Shown here: one piece after another, positions 6,001 to 55,500 of the stretch | How positions within the stretch are numbered: the stretch's first letter is position 1 | Layout of the letters: the number at the start of each line of letters is the position of its first letter | NCBI RefSeq assembly: GCF_032854445.1 | Contig: NC_088300.1 | Coordinates: 21,621,608 to 21,685,607 of the forward strand | Direction: 5' to 3' | Length of the DNA stretch: 64,000 nucleotides | From: Liolophura sinensis | Taxonomy: Eukaryota; Mollusca; Polyplacophora; Chitonida; Chitonidae | The notes under the pieces: model-generated | The model's database searches: none | What the model saw: only the letters and a program-made list of their open reading frames with translations | What the model was told of the DNA's origin: nothing | Made by a program: the position numbers and the translations under genes

Positions 6001-9000
6001 AAACAATTCACACCATAACCCTCATGACAAGCATTAATCCAGCAAGCTATACAGATCATAATGTTACCAGGGCATACACATGTAATATTTACATTGTACA
6101 CCTAAAGCCAAACATACACAATCAACAATTAGCACACACAGCAAGACAAAAACAACATTAAGCCATGTGACAAACCATAACAAATAACAAATACATTTAC
6201 AGCAAAAAGCAGAATGGGCATTACATAAACGTATGCAAATTAACATATGGATACCATGTCATTTACATACAATGCACTGAACATTAAAATATTAAATCAA
6301 CAATAAGGACTGCTTCATTCCCTCATGAAACATCCAGCATTATGAAAGATGGCTCAAGAAATGGTCTTCTTGACTGAACACCTCCTGTAGCATGATGCTT
6401 GGGTTCTATAACAGCCATCTGTGGGCAGATCCTGATAATTCACATAAACACAGGTGGGATAAGAGTTAAGCATTAGTTTTTAAGACCTATACCTCCACTG
6501 TGAAGGTGATTTAACTCCCTAATAAACCCTCCTTAAAAGAGAAGTTTTCCATGAAAGTAAGGCACTTTATGTTACACATGCTCAATTTGGGCAGTTGGGG
6601 TCCAAGACTCGCCTCCGAACTGAAGGAGCACTGATTGGGTAATACTGCCATACTGACATTTTAGGTTGTTCATACACTATAAGCCTCTGTACCGTTATTG
6701 TGCACCTAGTTAAAATATACCAGAATTTTGTCTCTTTTGGGTAGAATTGAAAACTTTTTGCCCAATGTTACTTCCCACCCCCAAGGTAACAAAATGTTAT
6801 GATTTCACGTCCAACAACCTTGATCACCTCAAGATGGTCATGCTAGGACGTTTATTTTTGATATGTTGTAGAGGAAAGTGCAAGCTGCATGTGGTGGTAT
6901 GGCATGGGACCACAGGAGATATGGGAGATTAGGAGATATAAAGTTGACAAATTCACTACCGGTACATAAATAATAAAGAAAATCAATGGCAATTACCATT
7001 TTTCAGACAACCAGAACCTAAGCCACACTTCTCCCACAATTTTAATTTGGTGCAAATTCTAACTATTTCTCACCTTACCCTGAACTAAGCCTCATTTGAA
7101 AAAAAAGATTTTAACTTGGTGCTAATCTGATCACAAACTACAAAGCTACCCATCTACTATCACTATACCTCCATACCAGTTTTTATCGTTTTCTACACTT
7201 CTCCGAACATTTTAACTTTGTAAACAAACTTATGATTTTTGAGCCACATATTAAACACTCTGCTATATGCTGATATCATTTATATGGATGTTAGATTTAA
7301 GCTTCAACACTCTGCTATATGCTGATATCATTTATCTGGATACTAGTTTTGGCCTCCAACACTGTTATGTGCTGACATCATTTATATGGAAGTTAGATTT
7401 AAGCTTCAACACTCTGCTATATGCTGATATCATTTACATGGATACCAGCTTTGACCTCCAACACTGCTAAATGCTGATATCATTTATATGGAAGTTAGAT
7501 TTAAGCTTCAGCACTCTGCTATATGCTGATATCATTTATATGGATACCAGCTTTGACCTCCAACACTGATAAATGCTGATATCACTTATATGGAAGTTAG
7601 ATTTAAAATTCAACACTGCTACATGCTGATATCATTTATATGGACGTTACATTTAAGCTTCAACACTCTGCTATATGCTGATATCATTTATATGGATACT
7701 AGTTTTGACCTCCAACACTGCTATATGCTGATATCACTTATATGGATGTTAGATTTAAGCTTCAACACTCTTCCATATGCTGATATCATTTATATGGACG
7801 TTAGATTTAAGCTTCAACACTTTGCTATATGCTGATATCATTTATATGGGTGCCAGCTTTAAGCTTCAACACTCTGCTATATGCTGACATCATTTATATA
7901 TATGCCAGCTTTAAGCTTCAACACTCTGCTACATGTATATACTGATATAATTTATATGGATGACAGCTTTAAGCTTCAACACTCTGTTATGTGCTGATAT
8001 CATTCACACAGATATCAATTTTATAAAGCTGCAACAGTCTGCTATATACTGATATGATTTACATGGATGTCACCTGTAAGCTTCAACACTCAGTGGGTAT
8101 ACAAACTGTCCATGGGTCATAACACTGACCACAATATCCACTGACCCTCTTAAGAGCAGCTCTGATACGCTCCTTAGCTCTTGGTTTTACAACGGACCGG
8201 GCCTCGACGTCTCGCGGATGAGAGACTTGTGACTTGAACCGAACTCTCCGCTTGCTGCCAAGGGAAGAGTCGGTCTGCTCTGATTGGATCTTCTCTTCCA
8301 GGGGCGGAGTCTCTTGGGAGTCCTCCTCCTCCAGCCCGAGCAAAGAGTCTGGGTATTGCTCATCTAACAGCTTACCCTGACACAGGTTATATGTGTAGTG
8401 TGAAGATATAGGGATATAAAGTATCAATAGCATTCACAGTGCTACCTATTCCCGTATTCACATTCAAGCAATATCATGACACACCTTTCCTATTTGCCTG
8501 TACATATAACACAGGAGATGCCAAGTCATACTTTCCATTTTAGATGACATACTTGTCCATGTAGTAATCTAACATCATGGCCATATGTGGGACGGTCTGG
8601 CCACAACCTGCGGATGGTCGTGACTTCCCCCTGGCTTTTCCTGGATTCCTCCCACCATAATAAAGGCCACCATCGTACAAGTGAAATATATATTCTTGAG
8701 TACATCGTAAAACACCAATTAAATAAACCTAACTAAATAAAACAAACATCATAATGCAGGCACTTGGAAGTCATTCTACTACTGGAACACTCTTATCACG
8801 TCGGTATTTCATATACTCTTTCAAACCTGGGTAACAAGCCCATGTAGTGATCGGTGTTATGCATATCTTAACATAATACTCATAGATATGACAAATTAAT
8901 ATTGCTAATTAACATGGCAGTCACATATTAATGTAACAATAATCATTATGACACTATGTTAACATGACACTAATATATTTATAAAACAACCGTTAAATAA

Positions 9001-12000
9001 TGATGATCACCGTAACAAACTGTAACATCAGACTGATCGACACAACTGTAATACAATATTAACAATGACAACAATAACATAGTGCCACTGACCATTATTA
9101 CATGACACGTACAATATAGTATAATGTTAGCACAATACACATGGCAATTATTCACGGAAAGATCATATCTGGATTAAGCCAAATGATGGACCACTGATAT
9201 CCATCTACTTGTCAAACAAAGTATCAAACAAATATTATTTTGTGAAAAATGTAGTGTTTTTAAATTACCCTAAATAACAATAAATTTCGTCCATGACTAA
9301 CATGCCTAATTTTCTTGATTCTGAGAGTTCTATTTATTTTAGAAAGGTGTTTTGAGGTTTGCCTGAAACAGGGGGTGATATTCTAATGGAAAACTGTACG
9401 TATTGGCACTAAAAATATTTTGTGACCTTTATTTGCCTCTAAAAATGCACTTTTGAGGGCAAATTTTTAGGTCATTTGGGGCATGCCACATATTTAATCT
9501 TACAGACATCACAACTAGAACACACATTATCAACATGCAAAATTCTGTGAAAATGTGAAACAAAATATGAAGGTAATAAGATTTATTACTGACCTTCCCA
9601 GATTTTCCTTTCTTCTTGTTCCATCCTGCCATAAGTGACGAGTCTGACTCTAGCCTCATTGCCATCTCTGATCTTGACATACTGCTCAGTGACTGAGGCT
9701 CCAGTCCCATGCTCTCAGCCTGTACCTGTACAGGTAACATGAGACATTAGTAACCAGCTGACTAACACTGCTCAGTGACTGAGGCTCCAGTCCCATGCTC
9801 TCTGTCTGTACCTGAACAGCTAATGTAAGACATTAGTAACCAGCAGACTAACACTGCTCAGTGACTGAGGCTCCAGTTCCATAATCTCAGCCTGTACCTG
9901 AACAGGTAATGTAAGACATCAGTAACCAGCAGACTAACACTGCTCAGTGACTGAGGCTCCAGTCCCATGCTCTCTGTCTGTACCTGAACAGGTAATGTAA
10001 GACATTAGTAACCAGGTGACTAACACTGCTCAGCGACTGAGGCTCCAGTCCCAAACTCTCAGCCTGTACCTGAACTGGTAATGTAAGACATCAACCTGCT
10101 GACTAACACTGCTCAGTGACTGAGGCTCCAGTCCCATGCTCTCAGCCTGTACCTGTACAGGTAACATGAGACATTAGTAACCAGCTGACTAACACTGCTC
10201 AGTGACTGAGGCTCCAGTCCCATGCTCTCTGTCTGTACCTGTACAGGTAACATGAGACATCAGTAACCAGCAGACTAACACTGCTCAGTGACTGAGGCTC
10301 CAGTCCCATGCTCTCAGCCTGTACCTGTACAGGTAACATGAGACATTAGTAACCAGCTGACTAACACTGCTCAGTGACTGAGGCTCCAGTCCCATGCTCT
10401 CTGTCTGTACCTGAACAGGTAATGTAAGACATTAGTAACCAGGTGACTAACACTGCTCAGCGACTGAGGCTCCAGTCCCAAACTCTCAGCCTGTACCTGA
10501 ACTGGTAATGTAAGACATCAACCTGCTGACTAACACTGCTCAGTGACTGAGGCTCCAGTTCCATGCTCTCAGCCTGTACCTGTACAGGTAATATGAGACA
10601 TTAGTAACCAGCTGACTAACACTGCTCAGTGACTGAGGCTCCAGTCCCATGCTCTCTGTCTGTACCTGTACAGGTAACATGAGACATCAGTAACCAGCAG
10701 ACTAACACTGCTCAGTGACTGAGGCTCCAGTCCCATGCTCTCTGTCTGTACCTGTACAGGTAACATGAGACATTAGTAACCAGCTGACTAACACTGCTCA
10801 GTGACTGAGGCTCCAGTCCCATGCTCTCTGTCTGTACCTGAACAGCTAATGTAAGACATCAGTAACCAGCAGGCTGACACTGCTCAGTAACTGAGGCTCC
10901 AGTTCCATAATCTCAACCTGTACCTGAACAGGCAATGTAAGACATCAGTAACCAGCAGACTAACACTGCTCAGTGACTGAGGCTCCAGTTCCATAATCTC
11001 AGCCTGTACCTGAACAGGTAATGTAAGACATCAGTAACCAGCAGACTAACACTGCTCAGTGACTGAGGCTCCAGTTCCATAATCTCAGCCTGTACCTGAA
11101 CAGGCAATGTAAGACATCACTTCAGCCAACTTCAGTACTACAGTCTGCGCATCATCCTGAATATACAATTGCAAATAAAAAACAACAACCGTTATACTAA
11201 ACACTGCTTTCTCTCACATCAAATAATCTTATGTTATAAATTCTTACATCTGGTCCCCCTTACCTCTACAAATGCCTTGAAAGCCTCATCCACTGTGGGG
11301 AGGACATGAACCTGTATCTCCTTCAGCACTGGGGTGCGGGGACGGTCTTTATCTGCCGCTAGCTTATGTGTGATCTTCTCGGGTAGAGGTGTGTGTTTCT
11401 TGCCATTCTGGTCCAGGTAAGTTCTACAACAGTTAAGTCAACTCATCATCTAGGCCTATAAGTTCTTCAGAAGGCCAATCTGACACCACTATTATCTTTT
11501 GCATAAATAACATCAAAAGTACACGTATTACTACTTTTTTTCACCCACCCTATAACATTTCGCAGAAATACAAGTAATGTAAGTACTGGGAAATATATTT
11601 ATGGTAAGAAACCTGTTTTTATTGATTTATTTGACTGTTCTTTAATGTCATCTTTAAGAAGTTTTTAATATTTTATGGCAGCCAGTATTACGGATGAAGG
11701 AAACCAAGAGTTTCCTTAGTCATAAACTACTGTAACTAAAGCTAGTTACGGGTGAACTTTTCCAGATGTAGCATATCTCACGTAGGTAGAAAGCAAGTGG
11801 TGATTAGCAAACATCAAATAAGTCGACACAAGAGAGCATTGTCAACTGCAAATTGTCACCAATCAAGGCCCCGAGAAGCAAGGGAATCTAGAAAATCTGT
11901 TCTCTCCTTTCTGTTTGTGATCCTGGGTTCTCACATACTTGTACATGCATATGCTGATTACTAATGACCTTTGCCTCCTCCCATACTTGTGCATGCACAT

Positions 12001-15000
12001 GCTGATTACTCATGACTTTTGCCTCCTCCCAAACTTGTACATGCACATGCTGGTTACTCATGACCTTCGCCTCCTCCCATACTTGTACATGCACATGCTG
12101 ATTACTGATGACCTTCGCCTCCTCCCATACTTGTACATGCACATGCTGATTACTGATGACCTTTGCCTCCTCCCATACTTGTACATGCACATGCTGATTA
12201 CTCATGGCCTTTGCCTCCTCCCATACTTGTACTTGCACATGCTGATTACTCATGGCCTTTGCCTCCTCCCATACTTGTACATGCGCATGCTGATTACTCA
12301 TGGCCTTTGCCTCCTCCCATATTTGTACATGCACATGCTGATTACTCATGACCTTTGCCTCCTCCCATACTTGTACATGCACATGCTGATTACTCATGGC
12401 CTTTGCCTCCTCCCATATTTGTACATGCACATGCTGATTACTCATGGCCTTTGCCTCCTCCCATATTTGTACATGCACATGCTGATTACTCATGGCCTTT
12501 GCCTCCTCCCATATTTGTACATGCACATGCTGATTACTCATGACCTTTGCCTCCTCCCATACTTGTACATGCACATGCTGATTACTCATGGCCTTTGCCT
12601 CCTCCCATACTTGTACATGCGCATGCTGATTACTCATGGCCTTTGCCTCCTCCCATACTTGTACATGCGCACGCTGATTACTCATGACTTTTGCCTCCTC
12701 CCATGCTTACATTCTGTAAATCTCCAATCTTTTCAACTTCTAAAGCACTTTTTACAGTAGAATTTATGCATAGAATTTATATTTATAAAATGCTAAAAAT
12801 GATTTGTTTGTGTAACTAAAGTTTTCTTTACACCCCATATTTCCCCCAGAAAGTTTCAGAATATTGGTCACGGAGGTGGTTGAAAAGGTTAAAGAATTGG
12901 ACTGTGTACATACTGTTATTCATTCCCTATTACTATCCCTTACTTTTGTATCAGAGCAGCTTGTGTTTCCTTCTTCTGCTTATGGTCCTTGCCACCTCCC
13001 ATACTTGTGTAAGTCTGGATGTCCATGTAGAGGCCAGTGCTGTTCAGGGTTTCCTTGTTCTCTTTATCCTGAAGGTACTTCTTAAACAGTGTGATCAGCC
13101 TGTGGTCAAACAGCAACACGGAAACGTAATGGTCAACCAGCATGTATCATACATTTCTCAGCATCCCACTGTGGGTGGCCACAGACTCACAGATGTAACA
13201 TTGTACTGTACGTGTATTGGAACCGATTGCTAGCATACAGTATATTACCTATAGTTTTACTAGAATCCTTTCTGAGGTCTATAGATCACATACGGAATTC
13301 TGTACAAAATTTATGCTCAGTCTTTAAGTATAGGTGTTTATACAGTAGGGTGACTATATTATATAAGCCTTTAGCCTTGCCTTTATACAACCCTAACATG
13401 GGCTAATATGTGTATGAAAAGTGTTTGCTTCTATTTCTATAAAGGCCATTCACAAACACAAAGCATAAGTATTTTAACTTCAGCTGTAGACCTCATGATC
13501 CCACTACATGTATATGTATATTACATATTTTAGTAGAGTTTTACACAAGAGGGATTTAGTGTCATTCAGCCCATAAGGAAATTTTTTCTTGCTGGTTTTT
13601 GTTTAAAAATAGTTTTGATGCAGTATACAGAAATATATGTGCAGACTCTATAAAATGCCCATTTCCTAACCATTTTAATAGGAAAAACAATGGTTTAGGT
13701 TAAGGGCCCATTCTGCATGGTTTATGTAAAGTACACATGTTAAATGACAGAAGACCCTACTCATGGTTTATGTAAAGTACACATATTAAATGATAGAAGA
13801 CCCAACTCATGATTTATGTAAAGTACACATGTTAAATGACAGAAGACCCAGGTCATGGTTTATGTAAAGTACACATATTAAATGAGGATGACCCAACTCA
13901 TGGTTTATGTAAAGTATACATATTAAATGAGGATGACCCAACTCATGGTTAATGTAAAGTACACATATTAAATGAGGATGACCCAAGTCATGGTTTATGT
14001 AAAGTACACATATTAAATGAGGATGACCCAACTCATGATTTATGTAAAGTACACATATTAAATGAGGATGACCCAACTCATGGTTTATGTAAAGTACACA
14101 TGTTAAATGAGGATGACCCAACTCATGATTTATGTAAAGTACACATATTAAATGATAGAAGACCCAACTCATGATTTATGTTAAGTACACATGTTAAATG
14201 ACAGAAGACCCAGGTCATGGTTTGTGTAAAGTACACATATTAAATGAGGATGACCCAACTCATGGTTTATGTAAAGTACACATATTAAATGAGAATGACC
14301 CAACTCATGGTTTATGTAAAGTACACATATTAAATGAGGATGACCCAACTCATGATTTATGTAAAGTACACATAATGACAGAAGGATGGCTTAATTATGT
14401 ATGATGAATGAGCCTACTCACGCTTTATGTGAAGTCATATCCGCAAAGTTGACAGGTTTAGGTTCTCCATCTTGTCCGTCAGGGAGGTCCCCCTCTGCCG
14501 ACCCCGTCTGCTCATCACGCTAGAAGCACAACAACACCAACACTTATTGCCAGCCAAGTGCTCCTCCATGTGATATTTTATTTCCATTTTCATGTAAATG
14601 TATTTCAAATACATGCAGGTCAAATATACTGCTAAAAACCTGATTAGTATATCATACCTGAATGCTGATGTCTCAGCAATATAACATCATGTAGGGTGTA
14701 CAGGATTTCCGATTAGGAATCCTAGCGACATGTTACTCACCTCTGATGGAGAAGATTTCTTCTCTTTCGCAGCCCTCTGCCTCATTCGTGCTGCTCTGAT
14801 TGCTTTTCTCCTCTCTCGCTCCATCTCCTTACGGCGCTCCTTTGCCAGGCGTTTTCTCTCAGCACGGCGCTCCTCATCAATACTTTCAGCCAATGACAGG
14901 GCAGAGCGTAGACGGCGGGCGCGCTCTGTTTCTGTGGAACCAGGGTACCTAAGAAACAACAATCAGACTTACCTCACTGATGGGCATGTATTCTATGTGG

Positions 15001-18000: not shown

Positions 18001-21000
18001 GAGAGACTGAAGGCTACTTGTAGTTCTATAGTACACAGTATTAAATGATCACCCATGGTACAATATATTAAAAAACAACCACACAAAATAATGAACATAC
18101 CGACGGAAGAAAATAATGTATACCAGACTGTGGATAATAATGTATACCCGACAGTACAAAATAATGTATACCCAACTGTACAAAATAATGTATACCTGAC
18201 TGTGGACAATAATGTATCCCCGACTGTACAAAATAATGTATACCACAACTGTACAAAATAATGTATGCCCATGTGAAAAAAAAAATGACTGTACACCTGT
18301 ACAAAATAATGTATACCCGACTGTACAAAATAATGTATTCCCAAGTTTAAAAATAATGTATACCCGACAGTACAAAATAATGTATACCCAACTGTACAAA
18401 ATAATGTATACCTGACTGTGCACAATAATGTATACCCGATGGTACAAAATAATGTATACTCCACTGCACAAAATAATGTATGCCCATGTGTACAAATAAT
18501 GTATGCCTGACTGTACAAAATAATGTATACCCGACTGTACAAAATAATGTATGTCCGAGTGTAAAAATAATGTATGCCCGACTGTACAAAATAATGTATG
18601 CCCATGTGTAAAAATAATGTACGCCTGACTGTACAAAATGATGTATGCCCATGTGTAAAAATAATGTACGCCTGACTGTACAAAATGATGTATGCCCATG
18701 TGTAAAAATAATGTACGCCTGACTGTACAAAATGATGTATGCCCAACTGTACAAAATAATATACATGTATACTCGACTGTGAAAAATAATGCATACCCAC
18801 TGTACGTAATAACCATGTGTGGTAAAGAAGTGGGCAGAAGATCATGTGAACATGATTCTTGACTGAGAATAGTGTACCTGAGGCGCTAATGAGTTAGGAC
18901 TGATGTATTGTGTATGTCACAGACCTGGTGAGGAATCTATGGAAGGGTCCACCAGCTGACTTGTCTGCAGTCAGCGCCAAGATTAACCCATCTCGTAAAG
19001 GTCTGCAGAAAAACAGAGAATACATGCTAGACAGTCCATCAGGATTTGCATCAGAAATATTTACACATGCCTGCATCTCTCTATAAGTATTATACTGAAA
19101 CTTGTCCTTGGTTTATACTGTTTAATACTTACGGTCACAGAGGAGAGTAGCGTCTGCAGGCTGTGTTTTAACCCAGTTAAATTATTATTAAATATAAATC
19201 AGTATACTATCATGTCCAAATCTTAAGGGAAAAGAAATAAGGAAAACTAAAAGTATATGTATTTTATCAGCACTTTCCGCTTTAGCCAGATGTATATTAC
19301 TGACACACAATTATTGCAGTTTTGCAGTTTATTGCAGTTCAACTGGACGGAGTTGGTTGTTTTTTTACCTATAATGTACTGTCCATTATCTGGACTAGTA
19401 ACTGGCTAAGTGCGCTGGTTTACTAATGGCATTTCAGTTTTCACAAAGCAAAAAGTTATGCTACATCACGTGCTTACATGGACTGAGTAAGTTGTCTCGC
19501 CAAGCTGTAGCTTACCTGGATTGCGCCTGTTGCCCCTCCTGTAGTGTACATGTATGTGCATTGTCTATTTTGCCTTGCTTTTAGCTTACCTGGATTTCAC
19601 CTGGATTATGTAAAGTTGTCACACTTTTTGTGTACATGTAACTTACCTGTTGCCTCAGATGCAGCTTACCTGGGTTGTGTATGCTGCCTTATCTGTGGTT
19701 TAACTGGTTCTCATACCTGCTGTGCCCCTGTAGCTTACCCAGATTGTGTATGCTGCTTTATTTGTAGCTTACCCAGATTGTGTATGCTGCTTTATTTGTA
19801 GCTTACCCAGATTGTGTACACAGCTTTATTTGTAGCTTACACAGATTGTGTATGCTGCTTTATTTGTAGCTTAACTAGACTTTGTATGTTGTCACATCTG
19901 TAGTTTACCTGGATTGTGTATGTTATCTAGTATGCAGCTTACCTGGATTGTGTATCTTGTCTCACCTGTAGCTTACCTGGATTGTGTATGTCATCTTGTC
20001 TGTAACTTGTCTTGATTGTGTATGTTATCTCCTGGATTGTGTATGTTATCTCGCCTTAGGGTTCCGGAATTAAGTATGTTACATGTATATGTTACATGCT
20101 TACCTGGATTATGTATGTTATCTCGCCTGAAGCTTCTCTGGATTATATATGTTATCTTGCCTGAAACTTACCTGGATTGTGTATGTTATCTCGTCTGTAG
20201 CTTGCCTGGATTGTGTATGTTATCTTGCCTGAAGCTTACCTGGATTGTGTATGTTGTCTCGCCTGAAGATTACCTAGACTGTGTATGTTATCTCGCATTA
20301 GGGTACGGAAAAAAAGGGGCCTCCTTGGCTCAGTCGGTTAGCGTGCTAGCGCAACATAATGACCCAAGAGTCTCTCACCAATGCAGTCGCTTTGAGTTCA
20401 AGTCCAACTCATGCTGGCTTCCTCTCAGGCCATACGTGGGAAGGTCTGTCAGCAACCTGGGGATGATCGTGGGTTTCCCCCAGGCTCTGCCCGGTTTCCT
20501 CCCTCCATAATGTTGGCTGTGTTGTATAAGTGAAATATTCTTGAGTACCGCGTAAAACACCAATCATATGTTATCTTGCCTGTAGCTTAAATGGATTGTG
20601 TATGTTATCTCACCTATAGCTTCCGTAGTTTGCGCATGTTGTCTTGTCTGTGGCTTACCTGGATTGTGTATGTTATCTTGTCTGTAGGCTACCTGAATTG
20701 TGCTGTCTCACCTGTAGCTTACCTGGATTATGTATGTTACCTCGTCTGTAGCTTACCTAGATTGTGTATGTTGTCTTGCCTGTAGCTTGCTCTTGGCTGA
20801 CTTGACCCTGTCATGGAACTGAGAGCCTCCTTTACTGACCACCTCCCAGCTGTTGAGTTTTGTGAGGGCCTTCAGTACATCGGCTTGGACAGGCAATGAG
20901 TTAACGAGTGAGATGGATGGGAAGATGGACATCGTGGATGTCTGACGACCAAACACTGCTGGCTGTCTGACACTGCTATGTCGGTCAGACCAAGAACTGG

Positions 21001-36889: not shown

Positions 36890-39390
36890 ACAACTAAATG
36901 AATATCAGAGGTCATAACAATAGACTCAGAGGTCATAACAACATAGAGTATCAGAGGTCATGACAACAAAGAGTATCAGAGGTCAAACCAGTCACTGAAT
37001 GGGTACTGTAACAGAAGTCATAACACAATGTTTGTCAGAGGTCATAAGCAAATGGGTGTCAGAGGTCATAACAGCTGAACAAAGTATCGGAAGCCATCAC
37101 AACTGTCCAAGGTCAATATACTCGTAACAATTACTGAATGAGTATGAGAGGTCATAGCAGCTGAATGGGTATCCAAGATTATAGCAACTGAAAGATTACC
37201 AGAGGCCATAAGGACTGAATGAGTATGAGAGGTCATAGCAGCTGAATGGGTATCCAAGGTTATAGCAACTGAAAGATTACCAGTAGCCATAAGGACTGAA
37301 TGAGTATCAGACGTCACAGCAGCTGAATCGGTATCCAAGGTTATACAACTGATAGATTACCAGAGTCTATAAGGACTGAATGAGTATCAGAGGCCATAAG
37401 GACTGAATGAGTATCAGAGGTCATAGCAGCTGAATGGGTATCCAAGGTTATAGCAACTGATAGATTACCAGAGGCCATAAGGACTGAATGAGTATCAGAC
37501 GTCACAGCAGCTGAATCGGTATCCAAGGTTATAGCAACTGATAGATTACCAGAGACCATAAGGACTGAATGAGTGTCAGAGGTCATAGCAGCTGAATGGG
37601 TATCCAAGGTTATAGCAACTGATAGATTACCAGAGGCCATAAGGACTGAATGAGTGTCAGAGGTCATAGCAGCTGAATGGGTATCCAAGGTTATAGCAAC
37701 TGATAGATTACCAGAGTCTATAAGGACTGAATGAGTATCAGAGGTCATAGCAGCTGAATGGGTATCCAAGATTATAGCAACTGATAGATTACCAGAGGCC
37801 ATAAGGACTGAATGAGTATCAGAGGTCATAGCAGCTGAATGGGTATCCAAGGTTATAGCAACTGATAGATTACCAGAGGCCATAAGGACTGAATGAGTGT
37901 CAGAGGTCATAGCAGCTGAATGGGTATCCGAGGTTATAGCAACTGATAGATTACCAGAGGCCATAAGGACTGAATGAGTGTCAGAGGTCATAGCAGCTGA
38001 ATGGGTATCCGAGGTTATAGCAACTGATAGATTTCCATAGGCCATAAGGACTGAATGAGTATCAGAGGTCATAGCAGCTGAATGGGTATCCAAGGTTATA
38101 GCAACTGAAAGATTTCCAGAAGCCATAAGGACTGAATGAGTGTCAGAGGTCATAGCAGCTGAATGGGTATCCAAGGTTATAGCAACTGATAGATTTCCAG
38201 AGGCCATAAGGACTGAATGAGTATCAGAGGTCATAGCAGCTGAATGGGTATCCAAGGTTATAGCAACTGATAGATTTCCAGAGGCCATAAGGACTGAATG
38301 AGTATCAGAGGTCATAGCAGCTGAATGGGTATCCAAGGTTATAGCAACTGAAAGATTTCCAGAAGCCATAAGGACTGAATGAGTGTCAGAGGTCATAGCA
38401 GCTGAATGGGGTATCCAAGATTATAGCAACTGAAAGATTTCCAGAGGCCATAAGGACTGAATGAGTATCAGAGGTCATAGCAGCTGAATGGGGTATCCAA
38501 GGTTATAGCAACTGAAAGATTTCCAGAGGCCATAAGGACTGAATGAGTGTCAGAGGTCATAGCAGCTGAATGGGGTATCCGAGGTTATAGCAACTGATAG
38601 ATTACCAGAGGCCATAAGGACTGAATGAGTATCAGAGGTCATAGCAGCTGAATGGGTATCCAAGGTTATAGCAACTGATAGATTACCAGAGGCCATAAGG
38701 ACTGAATGAGTGTCAGAGGTCATAGCAGCTGAATGGGTATCCAAGGTTATAGCAACTGATAGATTACCAGAGGCCATAAGGACTGAATGAGTGTCAGAGG
38801 TCATAGCAGCTGAATGGGTATCCGAGGTTATAGCAACTGATAGATTACCAGAGGCCATAAGGACTGAATGAGTATCAGAGGCCATAAGGACTGAATGAGT
38901 ATCAGAGGTTATAGCAGCTGAATGGGTATCCAAGGTTATAGCAACTGAAAGATTACCAGAGGCCATAAGGACTGAATGAGTATTAGAGGTCATAGCAGCT
39001 GAATGGGTATCCAAGGTTATAGCAACTGAAAGATTTCTAGAGGTCATAAGGACTGAATGATTATCAGAGGTCACAGCAGCTGAATGGGTATCCAAGGTTA
39101 TAGCAACTAAAAGATTACCAGTAGCCATAAGGACTGAATGAGTATCAGTGGTTATAGCAGCTGAATGAGTGTCAGAGGTCAAGATAACTAAATAAGAATC
39201 AGAGGTCATAACTGAATGAGTGTCAGAGGTCATATTAACTAAATAAGTATGAGAGGTCAAAACAACTGAATAAGTATGAGAGGTCATAACAACTGAATGA
39301 GTATCAGTGATCATGTAAACTAAATGAGTATCAGTGGTCATAACAACTGAATGAGTATCAGAGGTCAAAGCAAATAAACACATATCAGAG
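36890..39390. repeat. Satellite array: 81-bp higher-order unit built from 27-bp subunits
   Basis: Core from about 37190 to 39130 is an 81-bp unit (aggactgaatgagtatcaga, ggtcatagcagctgaatggg, tatccaaggttatagcaact, gatagattaccagaggccat, a) in about 24 copies. Both flanks (36890-37070 and 39150-39390) hold simple 27-bp copies of gaatgagtatcagaggtcat. The unit is a multiple of three, so long minus-strand ORFs result; no start or splice context supports a protein. Intergenic. Confidence 0.93.
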
Positions 39391-39940
39391 GCCTGAAGGA
39401 GTCAGCAGTCCTGATACCAACTGACATTGTGGAGGCCTTGGTGTTATGGATTGGTTGATACTTCTTAACTGAGAGCATGAAGTTTGCTGCATACCACTTG
39501 CAATCCACCAACATGATGTTTGTTACCCAGGGGAATGTTCACCAGTAACTTGCTCATTGTTGGTTTTTTTTTCTTACTCTAGGCAACCCTGTTTTCTAAT
39601 CTTGTAAAACTGCCCAGATGCCATTTTATAAGCAATAAATTCTTGACTATGGCTTTGAACAACTATCAAACAAACTAACCCAAGAAACTATAAATTCTCC
39701 ATCCACAGGCAACAGCATTGTATCATTCTCAACACTTGAGCTGCTATAACTGTTGTAGTTGTCTTCAAGTACGTTCAAGAATTGTAGTATTGTCCACACA
39801 CACATCACTTGTCTAACAGAGCTTAAAATTGAGGACTTCATTCTCTGCAGAAAATAGAGATAGATTTTGAAATTGGTTACAGATAAGCTGAAAAAGTGGT
39901 TTATATTGTCAGATTCCTACATTCTGAATTGACGATTGTG

Positions 39941-43506: not shown

Positions 43507-46500
43507 CTATCCTATGCTTGTCATAACGATAGGGGACATGGGTCGAGTCCCAGAGTCCAGCGCCCGGATGAGGTCTTCTCCCTGCAGGAGATTGAGGGAT
43601 TTAGTGGGGGCGTTGACTTCACAGTCCTGTTGGGTGATACTAGGCAGAAGCAGGGCCTGGGCACTAGGGGTGGGTTCCACAGAGTCTTCCTATAAAACAC
43701 ACATAATCTGGGTTAGCAGGTGCTTGTCTGAACATCTTGCATCTTTTTAATTTTCATTTATGATTTCACTTGTAATGATTTTCATGGGTTGTAGAAACCA
43801 TAGCGCCTGGGGTAAACCACTGAGTTTTGGCAAGTTACTCACAAACTTTCCCATATGTGATGCACAACATATTGGTGGAAGTATATGGTTTTCAATGAAC
43901 AGATTGTACACATGGCCACTTACTGTTACCCAGGCTCCAAGAACAGTCCACAAATTCCTAGTCCAAGGCCAGGATCTCTGGTCTCCTAGTGACAGAGATT
44001 GCTGTGTATTCATGAATACTTCACCCTTATGACGGCGGTAAAGTTTATGGATGGAGGAAGCTTGACACAACCCAGATGAGAGCCAGTTACCAGATAAATT
44101 TCCAATAATGAATCCCAAAGCCAGCAAGTGAGAGCTGCACAAGTACAGCTACACAAATTAACTCTACTGGTCACTATGCCAGCTAATCCTAGGAACATGT
44201 CATTTTTATTACATTAAAAAAAAAAACAATTTCAATGCCTTTGCTTGATTTTGAAAAAATAAATCAAATGATCCAGAATCACTGGAATCGAAGCTGTTAC
44301 CAAAGCAACAAATATTTAGCTTTTTACATGTTTTTTTATGTATAATATTAATTCTAGCCCTACACTATGACACGTTCACTATTTTACTACTCTAATGATT
44401 TACAACACATTTCCACACTATGTGAGACCATCCTTAAAAAACTGTTTGCCAGGCATATCTAACCCTATCATGCGGAACTGGATTAGACAGTAGGGAGTTT
44501 TCATGCTGGCTTATGAAAAAAATCAGGTCTTTCCAGAAATTAATACAGAGAGAAACACATTTTTAGAAGAAATCTTCTTAAATCCCCAAAAAGCTCCTTT
44601 TTGAAGAGTGGATGGGTTATGTTCTACAAACCTACTAATAATGATGGAAGGGTGAACATAAAATAATGTCCAAAATTAATGAATAGGTTCTCTTTATCAC
44701 ACCAGGACACAAAACACTGTCCACAGTTATTCTTGGCAAAGAAAGCCTAGAAGTTCAGCCTGTGACTGCACAAGACATAACTGGACTTCCTTTTGCAGTG
44801 CTACATGAACGTCACTTAAGTCAGATCATGTAAGGCCACTTACTTCCCCCGCATTAGACACACGCCGGATCAGAGAGTTGCGTACGCTGTAGCCATGGTT
44901 ACGATCTTCACCTGTCAGTAGCAGGTTCATTAAGACACTCTTGTCTTTCAGACTGGCCGCTGGAAAGAAAACAGCCCCCAGGGGATTAGATGGAGAAATG
45001 TGAGAGGGAGCCATCTAGACCAGATACCAACACAGAACCCTAATTATAAGGCAACTATCTGAAAGTGTGACACCCTGTTCTAGTGACTGAAACACAAGTA
45101 TCTTAATTTCTCCACCATTACCAGCTCCCCCTCCATCAAGTGTTTAAAAAAGGGTATTTGTGTTCGAAATCAGTAATTACGGGCCTAAAATTCATAAAGA
45201 AGGTTGTATTTTAATTTTCTCTGAATCATCTTAATACATTTAACATAAATAATTCAGGTACCGGCTTGAGATTTACAGAAAGGCAATAATTTTAGCCATT
45301 AAGCGAAAATCAAAGTTTTATTCAAGATCAAAGGTCAAAGAATATTTGCAGAGAGTCCAATCCATTTATCTGTGTCCACTGGTCCAGTTTCCTCCAACCA
45401 TAATGCTATCATATACAGTAAGTGAAATATTCTTGAGTACGGTATAAAACACAAATCGAAAAATAAAAAAATATCTGACTGGGACTGATATGCTCATGAA
45501 TTTTGTATTTATACATGATGACGGCTATCTGAATTATAGGTAGTGGAAACACAGCCGAGCCCTGTGCAAAAGTACTTACTAAGTTAACTGTATACAAAAG
45601 ACTGAACGTAAAATGTGAAAATAGCTCTTGGCTGTACAAAAAATGGGGACCTGTCCAATGCTCTGGAGCAGGACCTTGATGTCATTTTATGGGCCTCAAA
45701 TGTTCCTTTCCCATTTCATCACGATGACGTCACTTTAAAGACACTACAGCGTTACAATAGAAACTGACACACTGCAGCACTGTGGACGTTGCGCTACAAT
45801 CCGTTTCTGAAGTAACAATGGCTAAAGGTCCTACTTCTCACCAGCGCCACCCTACGTGATAAAAAAATATGGCGCCTCCCCATTACACACATAGCTTGAC
45901 ATAGAGGAGACAATTACAGAATGCTGGCCTTAGTCTTTTGTATTTGAGCAGGTGTATGATTATCCCACATAAACTCTGTGGAATGGAAATCAAGGGCTGG
46001 AATGAAAAACGCACAGTACCTATAGTTTCCTGTCCCGAGTCCAGCTTGGGGACTTTTGCCACAGGAGGACCTTTTTCGAAGCAGCTTCTCTCTAGTGGCC
46101 GTTTGGCTTGGTGCGGGGGTACGATGCGGGCCGGCTGGGTCATGTTTGTACCACTCTCTCGTAGCCACATCTCACGGATGGTTGGCATTGGGCTTGGCAA
46201 ACGACTGTTGTCTTGGAACAGCGATTTCGGCACAAACACACTCTCCGTGGTGCCAAAAAATCTGAAAGTAAACGTAGGAAAAATACCTGTTTGTCAAATT
46301 CTGATGATTCATGCTCACTTCCTCACTGCAGCATTGGCCACAGTTCAGTTTTCAAAATAGGACAGAGCAAATAAGATCTATAAACACATACAATACAAAT
46401 CTCCCAAATTCTGATTACAACACTAGCCACATGAATAAGACACTAATACACACAAAATGAGCAGGTAAATAGCTAGCGATAGCTTACTCACCTATTCAAC

Positions 46501-49500
46501 CATCTTGGTAGACAGGTCATCAACTAGGATACACTACTTGGAATAGTAGCCATATGGCATATTTTCAGGGGTAAACAATCAGGCCTATTATTTCAAAGGC
46601 TCTCAAACGACAGAGTTCTGCTTCATGTATTCCAAAGACTTTATTTCGTCTCTTTTTTCCAGGTGATATTTACAGTATTTGCCCAAAAATTCGCCATAAA
46701 AAATGCATTTCTTAGAGATATATAAATGTCACAAATCTTACTCTTACATTTTTCTACACCATACTACCTTCCACACAAAACTTACAAATCTTTCAATGCA
46801 ACTCTTAGAATGAGGCAAAATGGTTTCACTGCTGAAATTTTGGGTCAAATATAGTAGTTTTAGGTTGATTTTCTACTCACCCAGGATTGAAGTCTCCTGG
46901 CATACTGAACAGGGACTCGGTGGTTGGTGTGAAGAGGCCGAAGTCGTCCTCTGTATTCATGGGGATGTATGGAGCTCTCATGTCCAGGTCTTCATCCTGG
47001 TGGTTGGGAGAAAGACAAAGGGAGATAATCACTAACACTGAACATAGGAGCTTACAGAAATGTACAGCGGTAAGGGGAAGAACCTGCCCCAAAAAAGTCT
47101 GTACAAGTGATGTGCTCTTTGTTCTTGTGTAACTGTTTCGGTATAGATGTGCCTGTAAAAAACTATGACATAAGAGCAGAGAATGGTGTGCTTTTACACA
47201 GCATTAAATGTCCTTGTTACGATGATAGCATTTCATTATATGTGTACACTTTGAAAGCATGACTTACAGAGAAGAAATATTTATTTCTGTGTTTTATCTG
47301 ATTCTTTTTACTTTGTAACACTCTTGTCACATTAGCTTTTGTTGATTAGTGGGAAAAAAAAACATTTACTTTTTTATTAAATTTTATTTCCTTGGTATTA
47401 AATGCTGTATTTTTCATTTATGTAACAGTGGTCAGTTTTATGGGGAAACACCCAGTCTTTGTCAAGTATCTGACTAATGTACAATGGTAACTCAAGGGTG
47501 GAGGAAACAAGCAAGAGTCCATGGAAAACTGGGTCAGAACAAACATCTTTAATGGTTGATCAGATGATAAGACACAGGTGCTAATCGGCAAGAACAATTT
47601 TCCATCTTGTACAAGCCCGGCACTTACATTGAGAGGCTCCTGTGTGAGCTCGAGGGCTTGGTTTGTGTCCAGGGCTGAAAACTTGTTCATCAGGTCAGGA
47701 ACAGCCGGACTGAGGCTCTTACTGTACTCCATGGGGCTGTTCTGTTGTGTCTACACACCAAATAGAGGGAACTCAGTCTTAGGGATTAGACTAAGAAGGA
47801 TCAACATTCACATCAGGTATTTGTACTCTGTGTACAATTTAACATTTTTCAATTTCGTAATGCTTTCCTAAATCTGTTCCTTCATTCAATTTACTCATCA
47901 CTTTATAGCATGTTTCACTGGAGTTAGCACCAACTTACATAAAGGCAGCTAGAGTTTCACCATAGCTCACAGAGCTTTTAATATTCTTTAAGTGTAATGG
48001 GCTTCATTTTCACATGAGTTTATGCATGTACAATATCTTTATTGATCCAAAAAGCATTTTAACAGAACACATCTGTCGAACCACAAGCCTATATTAACAT
48101 CTATTGCACTTAGTACTGTTGACCATGTGGTCAGGAACAAGAGGGTCAGACAGACTAGAACAGGAAGCAGCCAGTGCAGCTGTATCATTAGGAAATCCTG
48201 TTGACTTACGTAAGGCGAAGAGGCCTGGCTACTGTTCAGGGGAGATAAGAGAGGAGGATCACGGCAGCGACTGAAGCTCGTCATATCCTGGGGCTCTTCT
48301 TTGAAGGATGAGAACGGCAGATCTTTTTTGAGAGGTGTGTCGGCCGGGCTGAGAATGTCCTCGATGATGATGCCAGTTTTAGAGTCAAATGTCACAGAGT
48401 CTGTACAAATCATAAAGTTTGTAAGTATGAGAACAGAAAACTGAAATTGGCAATGAGGTAAAGAGGAGAGTGAGAAAGAGAAATTATAAGTGCTGGTTGA
48501 TCACAGAACACTAACAATCTCACCCCATCCCTCCCCATTTTTTAATTATGGGGAACAATGAGTAAGACATCCACATACAAGTCGAACTTGTCGTATGGGG
48601 CCAGTGCAAGGAGACGAATTAAGTGGCCGCTTTGAGTAGGTGGCCACATAACACAGGCTGGTTAAAAGGCCGTGCCAATAAATAACATATGTTTCTGTTT
48701 TATCGGTATTAATTTCAGATATGATCAACGTTTATGGCTACATGCATTTAGTAGATACATGACAATGGTATACTAGTATTATATCTGAAAGCTGTGTGGG
48801 CTATAAGCCCAAAAGACCTAACAGAGTTGACACATAAGGTAAATAAACAAGCGCTTCCAATCCGAGTTTCAAGTCAGCACATGTGACTTGAGCACTTTCC
48901 CCCAAAACATTTCCATTGTCTAGACAAGTCTTGCGCTAGTTGGGCCAATGGAAATAATGAATATTCCAATAAAATTTTGGACTGCGAATCCCAGCTAGAC
49001 CGATGAGCTGCATGAAAGTTTATTCAGTTTGCCTTTATCGGTGAAACAACATACATGTACATGGATCAGGTGTTCATGAAAGGTCATACTTTGTTAAACC
49101 AAAAGGAAGACACAGCATCATTTGTCTACAAAGATAATGTCCATGCAAGCCAGATGCCTCGTCAAAGAAACCATTCATGGATAGAACCACAGGAGGTCAG
49201 ATTATATCCTGGTTTGCACACTGTGACTTAATGGCTTTCCCACCTCAGACAACCTCTATAAATTGAGCTAATAAATCACACTGCCTGTCAGCAGGTGTCT
49301 TGACAATAACCATCTGGGCATTAAAGCAAAACCACAAACTCCACTGGTCAAGGCAAAGATGCAGGTACAACACTGCAAATTTTCAATCACTATCAAAGCT
49401 GTGTAAGTTTGTTGCTACCATTTAGAGCCATTTTTTAATGTCCGATCGTCATTACTTCTGAAAATCTCGGCCGTGTAGGGTAGGTTGATATTGGGCATTG

Positions 49501-52500
49501 TTACAATACATAGTGGCTGCTGGCCGTGTAAGGCAGGTTGATATTGGGCATTGTTACAATACTTAGTGGCCGCTGGCCGTGTAGGGCAGGTTGATATTGG
49601 GCATTGTTACAATACTTAGTGGCCGCTGGCCGTGTAAGGCAGGTTGATATTGGGCATTGTTACAATACATAGTGGCCGCTGGCCGTGTAGGGCAGGTTGA
49701 TATTGGGCAATGTTACAATACATAGTGGCCACTGGCCATATAAGGCAGGTTGATATTGGGCATTGTTACAATACATAGTGGCCGCTGGCCATATAAGGCA
49801 GGTTGATATTGGGCACTGTTACAATACATAGCGGTCGCTGGCTGTGTAAGGCAGGTTGATATTGGGCATTGTTACAATACTTAGTGGCCGCTGGCCGTGT
49901 AAGGCAGGTTGATATTGGGCATTGTTACAATACACAGTGGCAGCTGGCCCTGTAGGGCAGGTTAATATTGGGCACTGTTACAATACATAGTGGCCGCTGG
50001 CCGTGTAGGGCAGGTTGATATTGGGCAATGTTACAATACACAGTGGCCGCTGGCCGTGTAGGGCAGGTTGATATTGGGCATTGTTACAATACATAGTGGC
50101 CGCTGGCCGTGTAGGGCAGGTTGATATTGGGCATTGTTACAATACACAGTGGCCGCTGGCCGTGTAGGGCAGGTTGATATTGGGCATTGTTACAATACAC
50201 AGTGGCAGCTGGCCGTGTAGGGCAGGTTGATATTGGGCATTGTTACAATACACAGTGGCCGCTGGCCGTGTAGGGCAGGTTGATATTGGGCATTGTTACA
50301 ATACACAGTGGCCGCTGGCCGTGTAGGGCAGGTTGATATTGGGCATTGTTACAATACACAGTGGCTGCTGGCCGTGTAGGGCAGGTTGATATTGGGCACT
50401 GTTACAATACACAGTGGTTGCTGGCCGTGTAGGGCAGGTTGATATTGGGCATTGTTACAATACACAGTGAACGCCAGCCGTGTAGGGCAGGTTGATATTG
50501 GGCATTGTTACAATACACAGTGGCCGCTGGCCGTGTAGGGTAGGTTGATATTGGGCACTGTTACAATACATAGTGGCTGCTGGCCGTGTAGGGCAGGTTG
50601 ATATTGGGCATTGTTACAATACACAGTGGTTGCTGGCCGTGTAGGGCAGGTTGATATTGGGCATTGTTACAATACACAGTGGCTGCTGGCCGTGTAGGGC
50701 AAGTTGATATTGGGCATTGTTACTATACACAGTGGCCGCCAGTCTGTTGGACAAGTGTCTGCATGTTACAGGTCGCTTAACTTCCAAACTCAAACTTGTG
50801 AAAACAAAAACAAATTCAAAAAATATTTATCAAAAGCTACATGTAATCAGACCACATTGTTGTGTTCCAAATTCCAGTGTTGTAAGTTATCAAAGTAGTT
50901 TGTGAAGTATACCACTGACAATGTAATAGTGCTAAACACAGAAAAGCCAAAATCTGAAAAATCTGGCAAAAATGTATGAAAATCAATAAACTGTATTCAA
51001 AATTTAATCAGATCATAATCAGTGATAAAAACACATGTACTAGATCTTACCAAAGTAAGTTAATACAAGTTAGATATATCCTGCTTCCTAGATAACACGT
51101 CCATAAACTAACACTGACACATATGACTCGACTGAGAGACAAGGACAAATGAACATGCTACATTGCAAGCGCAATTTGTCCTGTGTCAGCACTCACATAA
51201 ATAAAGCAAATGAAATGAACAGTTAACTTGGATCTATTTGGCAAACTTCTAGTTTGAGCGAATTCCATCAACATGTTTCACCTTTGGTCAGATGGCATGC
51301 TGTTAACTTATGTGAATTTACACAAAGATACTGGTGAAAGGTTAGTGATACCTAACAAACTTCATGCAAGGATAACTGAAAGTGATTGCTGATGCTGCCA
51401 ACATATTTCCGCAGAGGCCTGAAGGCAGTGGAGGCCTGGGAATTCACAGAATATACCTTGAAATGTAACACTGAAACCTTTCTGTTTCAGATTCAAAAGT
51501 TTACCTGGTGGGAAGGTGGAGAGAGTGAGAGGAACACAAACATCTCCTGCTGTGGGCGCCAGGTGAGTCAAGTCTTCAGGCTCATTACGAGCTGAAAAAC
51601 ACAGGTAAAGTAATTAGACATTATGGGTAACTGTCACCAATTTCGATATCAAACTGCACGTACCAAGTTTCTAATGCCTGGAAACATCTGAAGGAACTCA
51701 TGATCAAGAGAACAAGTTTTTGCACCTCATAAAGAAAATATGAAAGTGGTAAACATCAGGTTTGTATGCAAGACAGATCTTTCCACCATGACAAACTCCT
51801 ATCAACCCTTAATAAGGACAGTAGTAAAATCAAGTTCCGTCCAGTCTTGTATCTTTCAATTGTATGATACTAGTGAGGTTTATGTCTGAAGGGAAGAGGA
51901 AGTGTGAACTATGTTATAGGCAACCCTGCAAAGAAATATGTCACTTTTTGAAGCTTTGGCTGCTCACTAGTGATGTTCTTTGAGGCCTGTGATACATTAA
52001 ATTCACCTCTGTTTCCTTGCTGTAAGCACAGGTGCTAGAGCATTTACCTTTAGCATCCTTTTTAATCTCAGGTGGCATGTAGTACCCTTCTTCCATGTCC
52101 TTAGTTTTGGGAGCAAAGATTTTGTCAGTGCTCATGCTGATGTTCAATGGTGGCAGGATGTCCTCTAGGGCCACAGGCGACTGCTGCACATCTGACAGAA
52201 CTACTTTCTGGTTCTCCACAGCACTGAATGAACAAAACACAAGAGTTACTGCCTTTGTTTACTTCTGAAGCCTTCACTGCACAAATTTCAAATTAATGCT
52301 TAAATTTTGGGACTTATCTAGGTAATATCACCATGCTGACTTCCTCAAAAAATTTCTTTTGATTAATGAATTAGAATTCATGTTTTGTTCCTACTCTTTT
52401 CCACAATAAATAAATATGTAAAGTTAGTACCTAAAGGTAAAGGAATTTTTGATTTTCTAGTACCCTTATAACTTTGTGACTTCTATGTAAAAATACAAGA

Positions 52501-55500
52501 GTAGAGTAAAATACATTACTAAAGTGACATTCTTTTAATAAAATCTTCAAGGAATATCACACAATTATCAAATTTGAATACTATGTACTTTTTAAAGTAC
52601 TAAACCTGTTCTATTTTAGTTTCTTTTTTATCATCACAGAGCAAAATTAGACAGACAAAGCTGAGCTCAAAATCTCACCTGAGGACAAAGTGGACACAGA
52701 CCACACACTGGGGTTTCTGTGTGCGACTGTTGGAGATAATAGTGGCCTGAGAGATGACCTGTACATAGCCTCCGTTCTTAGCCAGGAATCTGTACTGACC
52801 AGTCATGGTCTGGCCTTTAGAAAACACTGAAACACAGTCACAAACATTCATGGTTAATACTGTACCCATGCAGATTTTGCCATAATGTATTATTTTTACT
52901 ACAACCTGCGGCATAAAACACCAATCAAATAAATAAATAAATAAGTTTTACTTCACACACAATGTATGATCAATAACAAAGATGCAGATCAGGAGTTTTT
53001 AGATTTTTTTTTAATGATGCACAGGAGCTAAGTTCCACAGATAGGATGCGTAGCACACCCAGTACATATATACAAAAACATTTTAAATAGTAATTATTTA
53101 TCTATTTATTTGATTGGTGTTTTACGCCATACTCAAGAATATTTCACTTATGCGACGGCAGAGAGCATTATAGTGGCAGGAAACCAGGTTAAAAGGTAAT
53201 GATAAATAAAAATGTATTACTGCACATGAAATGTTATCATGTGCTTAACAGAAACATTTAGTGTGCACAAGGCCATTAAAACATTTATGAGGTAATGAAA
53301 TGAATCCAGGGATGCTTTGGCACGCGGTCAAGAAATACTCAAGCTCCGATATACCTAACATGTATCCATAACGTGCATGTTTTGACTGTATAATGCAAGA
53401 TTTAAGTGCATGTGTACTCGACTGAAATTTACACAGGCATAGTTTGATGCACACAAAACTATATAAAGTTCATGATGCGTGCATATACATGTATGCTGAG
53501 CTCCACACTCAACCACCAGTTGGCCCATACCAGCGGAAGAGGCCTAGTGGGGTCAAGTGAGTGCAGTGCCCACTTACAGTACCCTAGTCATTATCTGTAG
53601 GTTGGGGTGTAGAGTTCAGAGCAGCCTTTGAGACAGAGCTCTTCTGGCCCACCTCTCCCAGTGTTAAAGCATGGTTATGTTAGTCTGTCAACTGACGGCC
53701 AACTGTAGAAGAATGAATATCATCCAAATGTACACTCTGACTTCTACAGGAAGAAGGCTTTTGAACTGTGACGTCAATCCCTTCTCAACTTCTAGAGAAA
53801 TTGCAACATTGCTCCCAAGAATCACGAAAAAGTTATTGGGATTGTGTACCAAAAAAAGCTTTTACTCAAAAGTTTGAGAGCATTTTTAAAGCAAGACAGA
53901 TCTCAGCATTTTAGGAAGTGTGTAATTTCCTGCTTCCAAAATCCATAAGTTATGGCGATGTAAAACACATAATACATGCAAGTCACATTTGGCACTTTTA
54001 GTGGAGCTGGGCGTGTTTAAATATCTCAAAAGTGTAGTAAGTCTCTTAAGAGTGCATTTTACAGCTTCAAAAGCCATTATGTCCTAAGTGTACAGGCCAA
54101 ATTTCAATTTCATCCTTTAAGATTTCTGTTCATGGGACCAAAATTAAAACAGAGTCAAAAACGCATGTTCCATACATTTTAAAATGATGTTCTATCTTGT
54201 TTTACTTGAAAAGGTGATCAACTGGTCCTCCATCTTCTCGGTAGACGGCGCGCAAGCGTTTCATCCATGAACTGATTGAGTCCCAAATCTCCTTAGGAGT
54301 AATTTTTTTCCAGCAGTCCTGGATGCGTGCTTTTAGTTCATCCTGAGTGAATTTTCCCGTGCGACCCTCATAGGTTCCCAACAGGTGATGCAATGTGGGT
54401 CATCGGAACGTGCGTTTTTGAGGCTATGTTTTCATTTTAACCTTGTGAACAGACTACCCAAGCTATGACCTTGAAAATTGGTCAGTATATTAACAAAATC
54501 ATGCCACTTGAATGTCTAAAGTTTGAAAGGGTTTGAACAAAGGATAATGTTTCAATGCGGCATCAAAGTACCGACCACTATTTATGCCCACCCGATACAT
54601 GCTCATTTATGGCAAAACAAAGTTTTGTTTTATAAGAAAGACTTTTCTTCCTGCTTTCTCTTTTCAAATTTCACACATGGCAATACATCAAAAACAAAAA
54701 AAATTCAAAATGTATTCAATGAAGAAACTAAAAATTTTCACATGTCTGTCTGAGGAGATACTGCAATGATGAGGTGGCAAAAGTGATGACCTTCCCATGG
54801 TTCCCATGGAGTCCTTGATACAGAACTTTTAGAGACTGTTATTCTCAGATGAGAAATATGGTTTATAAAGACAACTCTTATCACGCATTGAATCCCCTAT
54901 CACTCAACGAAAAGGCAGGAATGTCTCTAATTATCCAAACAGGATGACCAATCAGGTTATATTACTTTTCTTTTCAATAAATTCTCAAAAAACAGCATTG
55001 TAGAGTCCGATAATGGAAGACTATGCATGAATATCACTGACCAAGCTTTTCAAATGCGCTTCACAAGTATACCCAAGGCCCAGTCTTCAGCCCTTATCAA
55101 TCTGTGGGCATGGGCATAACATTCCATCTCTCTCCAAGCACTCATGTACATATGTAAGTGTTTATCAAACCAAACATGTACTTCGCTGTTTGATAAGTGT
55201 CTGGATATCAAAACACCCTCTAATTAAGTCTGGCAACAAGCTGATACAACAGACACTGCCTTCCCAGTTTGATTGTCTACACATTGCCTCAGGTGACAGA
55301 CAGGGTACTGATAACTCAATTCCTCTAGGTCATGACAACCTGAGGCGTTAAGGTCATCTGGACTTCAGGGAGGGACGGGGAACAACTACCCCATTATGTA
55401 AGACAGCAGAATAGGTGTGACCACATTCTTTCTTTCGTTTTTTTTTTAAGATCCAAGTCAAATGATAATAAAACATCTAAGAACTCTAAAAAAACACACA

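Follow-up and report, generated by a model that had tools for sequence, protein, structure and literature searches.

A 34-bp minisatellite begins in the last coding bases of exon 12 of an RGS22-like gene in Liolophura sinensis and runs on into the following intron, where it carries many copies of the exon's splice donor. The donor array is a real observation and exceeds chance: on the gene strand of 19505-20788 we count 18 strong donors including the exon's own (17 besides it), as against 0.83 on average and no more than 4 in any of 300 dinucleotide shuffles of the same interval, and none on the opposite strand. Hereby, a strong donor is one whose predicted duplex with the 5' end of U1 reaches -9 kcal/mol or lower. 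We regard the array, with a probability of roughly 70%, as a neutral by-product of a minisatellite straddling the exon 12 donor, in which the copies would be passive and the first donor productive. All positions refer to the window, that is, the whole 64,000-nucleotide stretch of DNA that was analysed. The features on which the argument depends are the following.

20757..20972, minus strand: exon 12 of the RGS22-like gene, 216 nt, phase 2 at both ends; acceptor GACATAGCAG|T; phase continuous with exons 11, 13 and 14
18925..19002, minus strand: exon 13 (PLRDGLILALTADKSAGGPFHRFLT), 78 nt, phase 2 at both ends
20755..20756, minus strand: GT of the exon 12 donor (TAG|GTAAGC), U1 score -9.4 kcal/mol; reads AGG TAA in frame
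19478..20790, minus strand: 34-bp minisatellite of about 30 recognisable units, with 18 strong donors if that of the exon is included
~20296..20575 (edges approximate): SINE-like insert inside the minisatellite, with 11 other matches in the window

The gene and the repeat

The minus-strand gene is likely RGS22-like, because an RGS domain just exceeds the Pfam cut-off and two tblastn matches to an approximate query occur in the expected order. The domain (PF00615; 24.6 bits versus a cut-off of 23.9) lies upstream of exon 12 in a protein pasted from several open reading frames of the window. This query, an approximate human RGS22 sequence, gave eight tblastn matches in the window at E <= 10, of which two lie in the expected order with E < 0.01 (28945-28862, 57% identity, E = 2e-4; 27970-27749, E = 0.009), one is weak and collinear (568-410, E = 5.2) and five are weak and at other positions (E 2.4 to 8.9). 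Exons 11-14 themselves gave no match to this query at E <= 10. They form a single open frame with phase 2 at all three junctions, in a gene model made by hand whose exon numbers are those of an earlier, sequence-only reading; the first base of exon 13 had been placed correctly there, at 19002. As to orthologues, a scan of viral contigs with exon 12 gave 18 matching stretches, none of which was confirmed as a relative, and a search of solved structures at E <= 1 returned seven sequences (best E = 0.23), namely six RGS proteins, none of them RGS22, and one unrelated enzyme.

That a 34-bp minisatellite extends on the gene strand from the coding end of exon 12 into the intron, as first proposed from the letters of the window, is borne out both by Tandem Repeats Finder (rows 19728-20293 and 20567-20788) and by unit alignment. 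Wrap-around alignment on either side of the insert yields 33 rows, 30 of which match the consensus GTAAGCTACAGGCAAGATAACATACACAATCCAG at no fewer than 20 of 34 positions; the unit count at the far end of the array is rough because some of the last units need 4-8 inserted bases. The first full unit (20790-20757) coincides with the last 34 nt of exon 12, encodes SKLQARQHTQS plus the AG of the next codon, matches the consensus at 31 of 34 positions and aligns best without a gap (GC for GT). Since the SINE-like insert interrupts the array, the spacing of the units is not a plain multiple of 34. Its 11 other matches in the window show 77-90% identity, some of them being short (39 bases at the least), and a tRNA search with bacterial settings found no tRNA in it. 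The repeat would hint at a mollusc as its host.

Donor copies and reading frame

Within the array the motif CCAG|GTAAGC occurs nine times exactly, CAG|GTAAG(C/T) 11 times and GTAAGC 15 times, and the exact CCAG|GTAAGC is confined to the array, neither strand of the window containing it elsewhere. Among the other 12 listed arrays, ten hold no strong donor on either strand, one holds two on the plus strand and one holds a single donor on the minus strand. While the donor array as such stands, its earlier description as about 30 consensus donors is too generous, as a donor at or below -9 kcal/mol sits at only 14 of the 30 unit starts and is missing from the other 16, the remaining four of the 18 strong donors being internal to units; 25 GT sites reach -6 kcal/mol. 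Nor does every unit re-create CCAG|GTAAGC, given the nine exact occurrences and an exon donor that itself reads TAG|GTAAGC. This first donor scores -9.4 kcal/mol, the CAG|GTAAGC copies -11.0 and CAG|GTAAGT -11.8 kcal/mol.

The phase of the exons restricts which of these sites can serve the protein. Exon 13 requires two bases from exon 12, and at a threshold of -5 kcal/mol or lower exon 12 offers three GT or GC sites: 20842 (phase 0), 20779 (a GC, phase 0) and 20756, which is the sole phase-2 site among them. The site at 20779 (CTACAG|GC), previously suggested as the original donor, is thereby ruled out, as its phase 0 in place of the needed phase 2 would shift exon 13 out of frame and into a stop. 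Downstream of 20756 we considered 26 candidates (GT at or below -8 or GC at or below -6 kcal/mol). Ten of them keep the frame by length, which agrees with the expectation that only every third donor could do so, but none is open: in all 26, the stop AGG TAA follows directly after exon 12. Any phase-2 donor that begins with GTAA will end translation when it is read through. Hence, in the sequence as it stands, the downstream donors provide no new coding sequence, and the route by way of every third donor, from which such a gain had been anticipated, is closed by the in-frame TAA at the first donor.

Origin and role of the copies

According to the reading that we favor, a 34-bp minisatellite would have arisen over the junction between the 3' end of exon 12 and the start of its intron, a short AAGC match between exon and intron possibly seeding the first duplication, and would then have expanded into the intron. 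The donor would have been copied along because the repeat spans both the exon end and the intron start, and its copies would be passive passengers. From sequence and phase we infer that protein is made by way of the most upstream donor, 20756, since it alone among the scored sites has the phase needed by exon 13. If a downstream copy is used, the TAA stands right after SKLQARQHTQSR, and the resulting mRNA would probably be truncated or targeted for decay. Some leaky use of this kind would be expected, as several copies exceed the first donor by at least 1.6 kcal/mol in U1 pairing. The same difference also speaks against this reading: with -9.4 kcal/mol the first donor is weaker than copies at -11.0 and -11.8 kcal/mol, so 20756 may not win.

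To judge whether the copies carry a trace of function, column conservation in the unit alignment is informative. The nine donor columns have a mean conservation of 0.804 compared to 0.791 for the other columns, and the donor block ranks 15 of 34 cyclic shifts. Selection on the donor copies is thus not seen by this measure, and as a force keeping the copies it was rejected; the donor columns are no better conserved than the others, and the copies decay as the unit at large does. Among 19 gap-free units, the exonic unit included, the latter departs from the consensus at three places, two of the changes being synonymous and one stop-to-sense (TAA in the consensus, CAA in the exon), with no amino-acid replacement, while the 18 others together show 43 synonymous and 50 replacement differences and 14 by which a stop is gained or lost; eight of these 18 are stop-free in the frame of the exon. 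This pattern is compatible with coding constraint on the exonic unit, three differences being a very small sample.

The exonic unit also bears on a different history, which would itself be compatible with passive copies and which we consider possible but doubtful, namely that the exon was extended by capture of a repeat unit. Here the ancestral donor would have been AAGAG|GTAAGC, after 20790, and a loss of its GT that shortened the sequence by one base net would simultaneously have abolished the donor and the in-frame TAA, turned the 34-nt unit into 33 nt and added 11 codons in frame. In line with this, AAG AG| provides the needed phase 2, the captured stretch (20789-20757) measures 33 nt, and the exonic unit departs from the consensus by the synonymous and stop-to-sense changes just described. 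Yet two mutations would be needed, one deletion and one T to C, compared to none for amplification of the exon end; a frame match is expected one time in three anyway; and the best alignment of the unit is gap-free, with GC for GT, in which case the ancestral phase would be 1.

Two further proposals would give the copies a role. The downstream donors might act as a regulated switch of unproductive splicing, adjusting the output of the gene by way of isoforms with a stop. For this one could adduce the abundance of strong donors whose use always brings in a stop, and the strength of CAG|GTAAGC, which outscores 12 of the 13 scored donors of the gene model; with donor columns no better conserved than the others and more than half of the unit starts (16/30) below strength, we deem such a switch quite improbable. 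The array might instead remain unspliced and serve as an intronic platform for U1 binding, for example suppressing premature polyadenylation. It does hold, within about 1.3 kb, 18 of the 46 strong U1 sites counted over the full minus strand of the window, but these sites carry no conservation signal, and this role appears to us very unlikely indeed.

Comparison with other arrays and known systems

Minisatellites are common in the window, the 13 listed arrays covering 14,178 of its 64,000 bp. One of them lies in the same gene and may be set beside the donor array as its counterpart at an acceptor, as it straddles a likely exon start.

9681..11119, minus strand: 86-bp array in the same gene, in which the acceptor CAGGTACAG is present 17 times

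The start of a likely exon (9719-9594) is made up of the last CAGGTACAG copy together with the 39 nt that follow; this exon is in frame with the next one, while all four of the next upstream copies, when translated, run into stops. Two of eight arrays straddling exon edges is within chance, as shown by Monte Carlo placement with 14 hand-made exons (mean 1.14, P = 0.32) and with 17 (mean 1.31, P = 0.38), the latter set including three candidate exons at ~13110-12942, 5022-4957 and 613-422. By contrast in outcome, a donor lies within 120 nt of the start in four of the eight arrays (mean 0.70, P = 0.003 with 14 exons; mean 0.80, P = 0.005 with 17), a threshold picked post hoc on the same data and with the same hand-made gene model.

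7254-8091: array starting within 120 nt of a donor
13716-14374: array starting within 120 nt of a donor
18083-18812: array starting within 120 nt of a donor
19505-20789: array starting within 120 nt of a donor (the 34-bp array)

Array position may therefore be non-random, which counts against passive copying by chance. Carried further, minisatellites in this genome would arise by preference where exons and introns join, take donors and acceptors along and act as a ratchet, the exon gaining one 11-codon unit whenever its first donor is lost with a net one-base deletion; we hold this to be unlikely. Two other arrays, 11930-12708 and 37133-39391, have units of 48 and 81 bp, both multiples of three, and contain long open frames, the former on both strands. 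A second gene on the minus strand at ~45000-53000, its extent guessed from open frames, encodes a PAS domain (Pfam PAS_3 and PAS_11; stretch near 52.7-52.9 kb) and is presumably HIF1A-like.

The closest precedent for the 34-bp array is found in another gene. In the human factor VII gene (F7), whose intron 7 contains 37-bp repeats, splicing normally uses the most upstream of their 5' splice sites and no other, according to a review. The likeness is one of layout: judged by sequence and phase, the first unit of the 34-bp array (20790-20757) holds the donor at the exon end, ending at the sole phase-2 site at or below -5 kcal/mol, and downstream units hold near-identical strong donors (17 besides the exon's own, with 14 of 30 unit starts). 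It differs from F7 by its SINE-like insert and its many decayed copies. F7 intron 7 also has fewer units. Whereas normal use of the most upstream donor is reported for F7, the array described here is known from its sequence, and by analogy with F7 we would expect 20756 to be mostly used.

Other systems share single features with the array. The 38-bp VNTR in intron 6 of TERT is likewise an intronic minisatellite with an effect on splicing, which it exerts by RNA:RNA pairing at a distance of over 1 kb from exons and not by copied donors (PMC3948165). Intron gain by tandem duplication resembles the array in that splice signals are copied when the duplicated segment spans an intron-exon boundary; it results in a new intron, whereas none is shown for the 34-bp array (PMC4974935). 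The CeRep25B minisatellite of C. elegans also lies near splicing decisions, being found close to alternative exons, and its association is through regulatory motifs, not copied donors (PMC4039745). The 34-bp array itself is not named in the portions of the literature searched, by which we do not claim that it is unpublished.

In conclusion, the array is mildly instructive and most likely arose passively, from a minisatellite that happened to lie across an exon end, a single donor being productive. It holds little promise for the gain of new coding sequence. Where near-identical donors stand in tandem beside a single exon, the selection made by the spliceosome among equivalent sites is put to the test in a natural setting; factor VII offers one such case in humans, and the 34-bp array would add another, in an invertebrate, in which a stop codon would expose each wrong choice. 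With a second array in the same gene that copies an acceptor, both ends of introns would become comparable.
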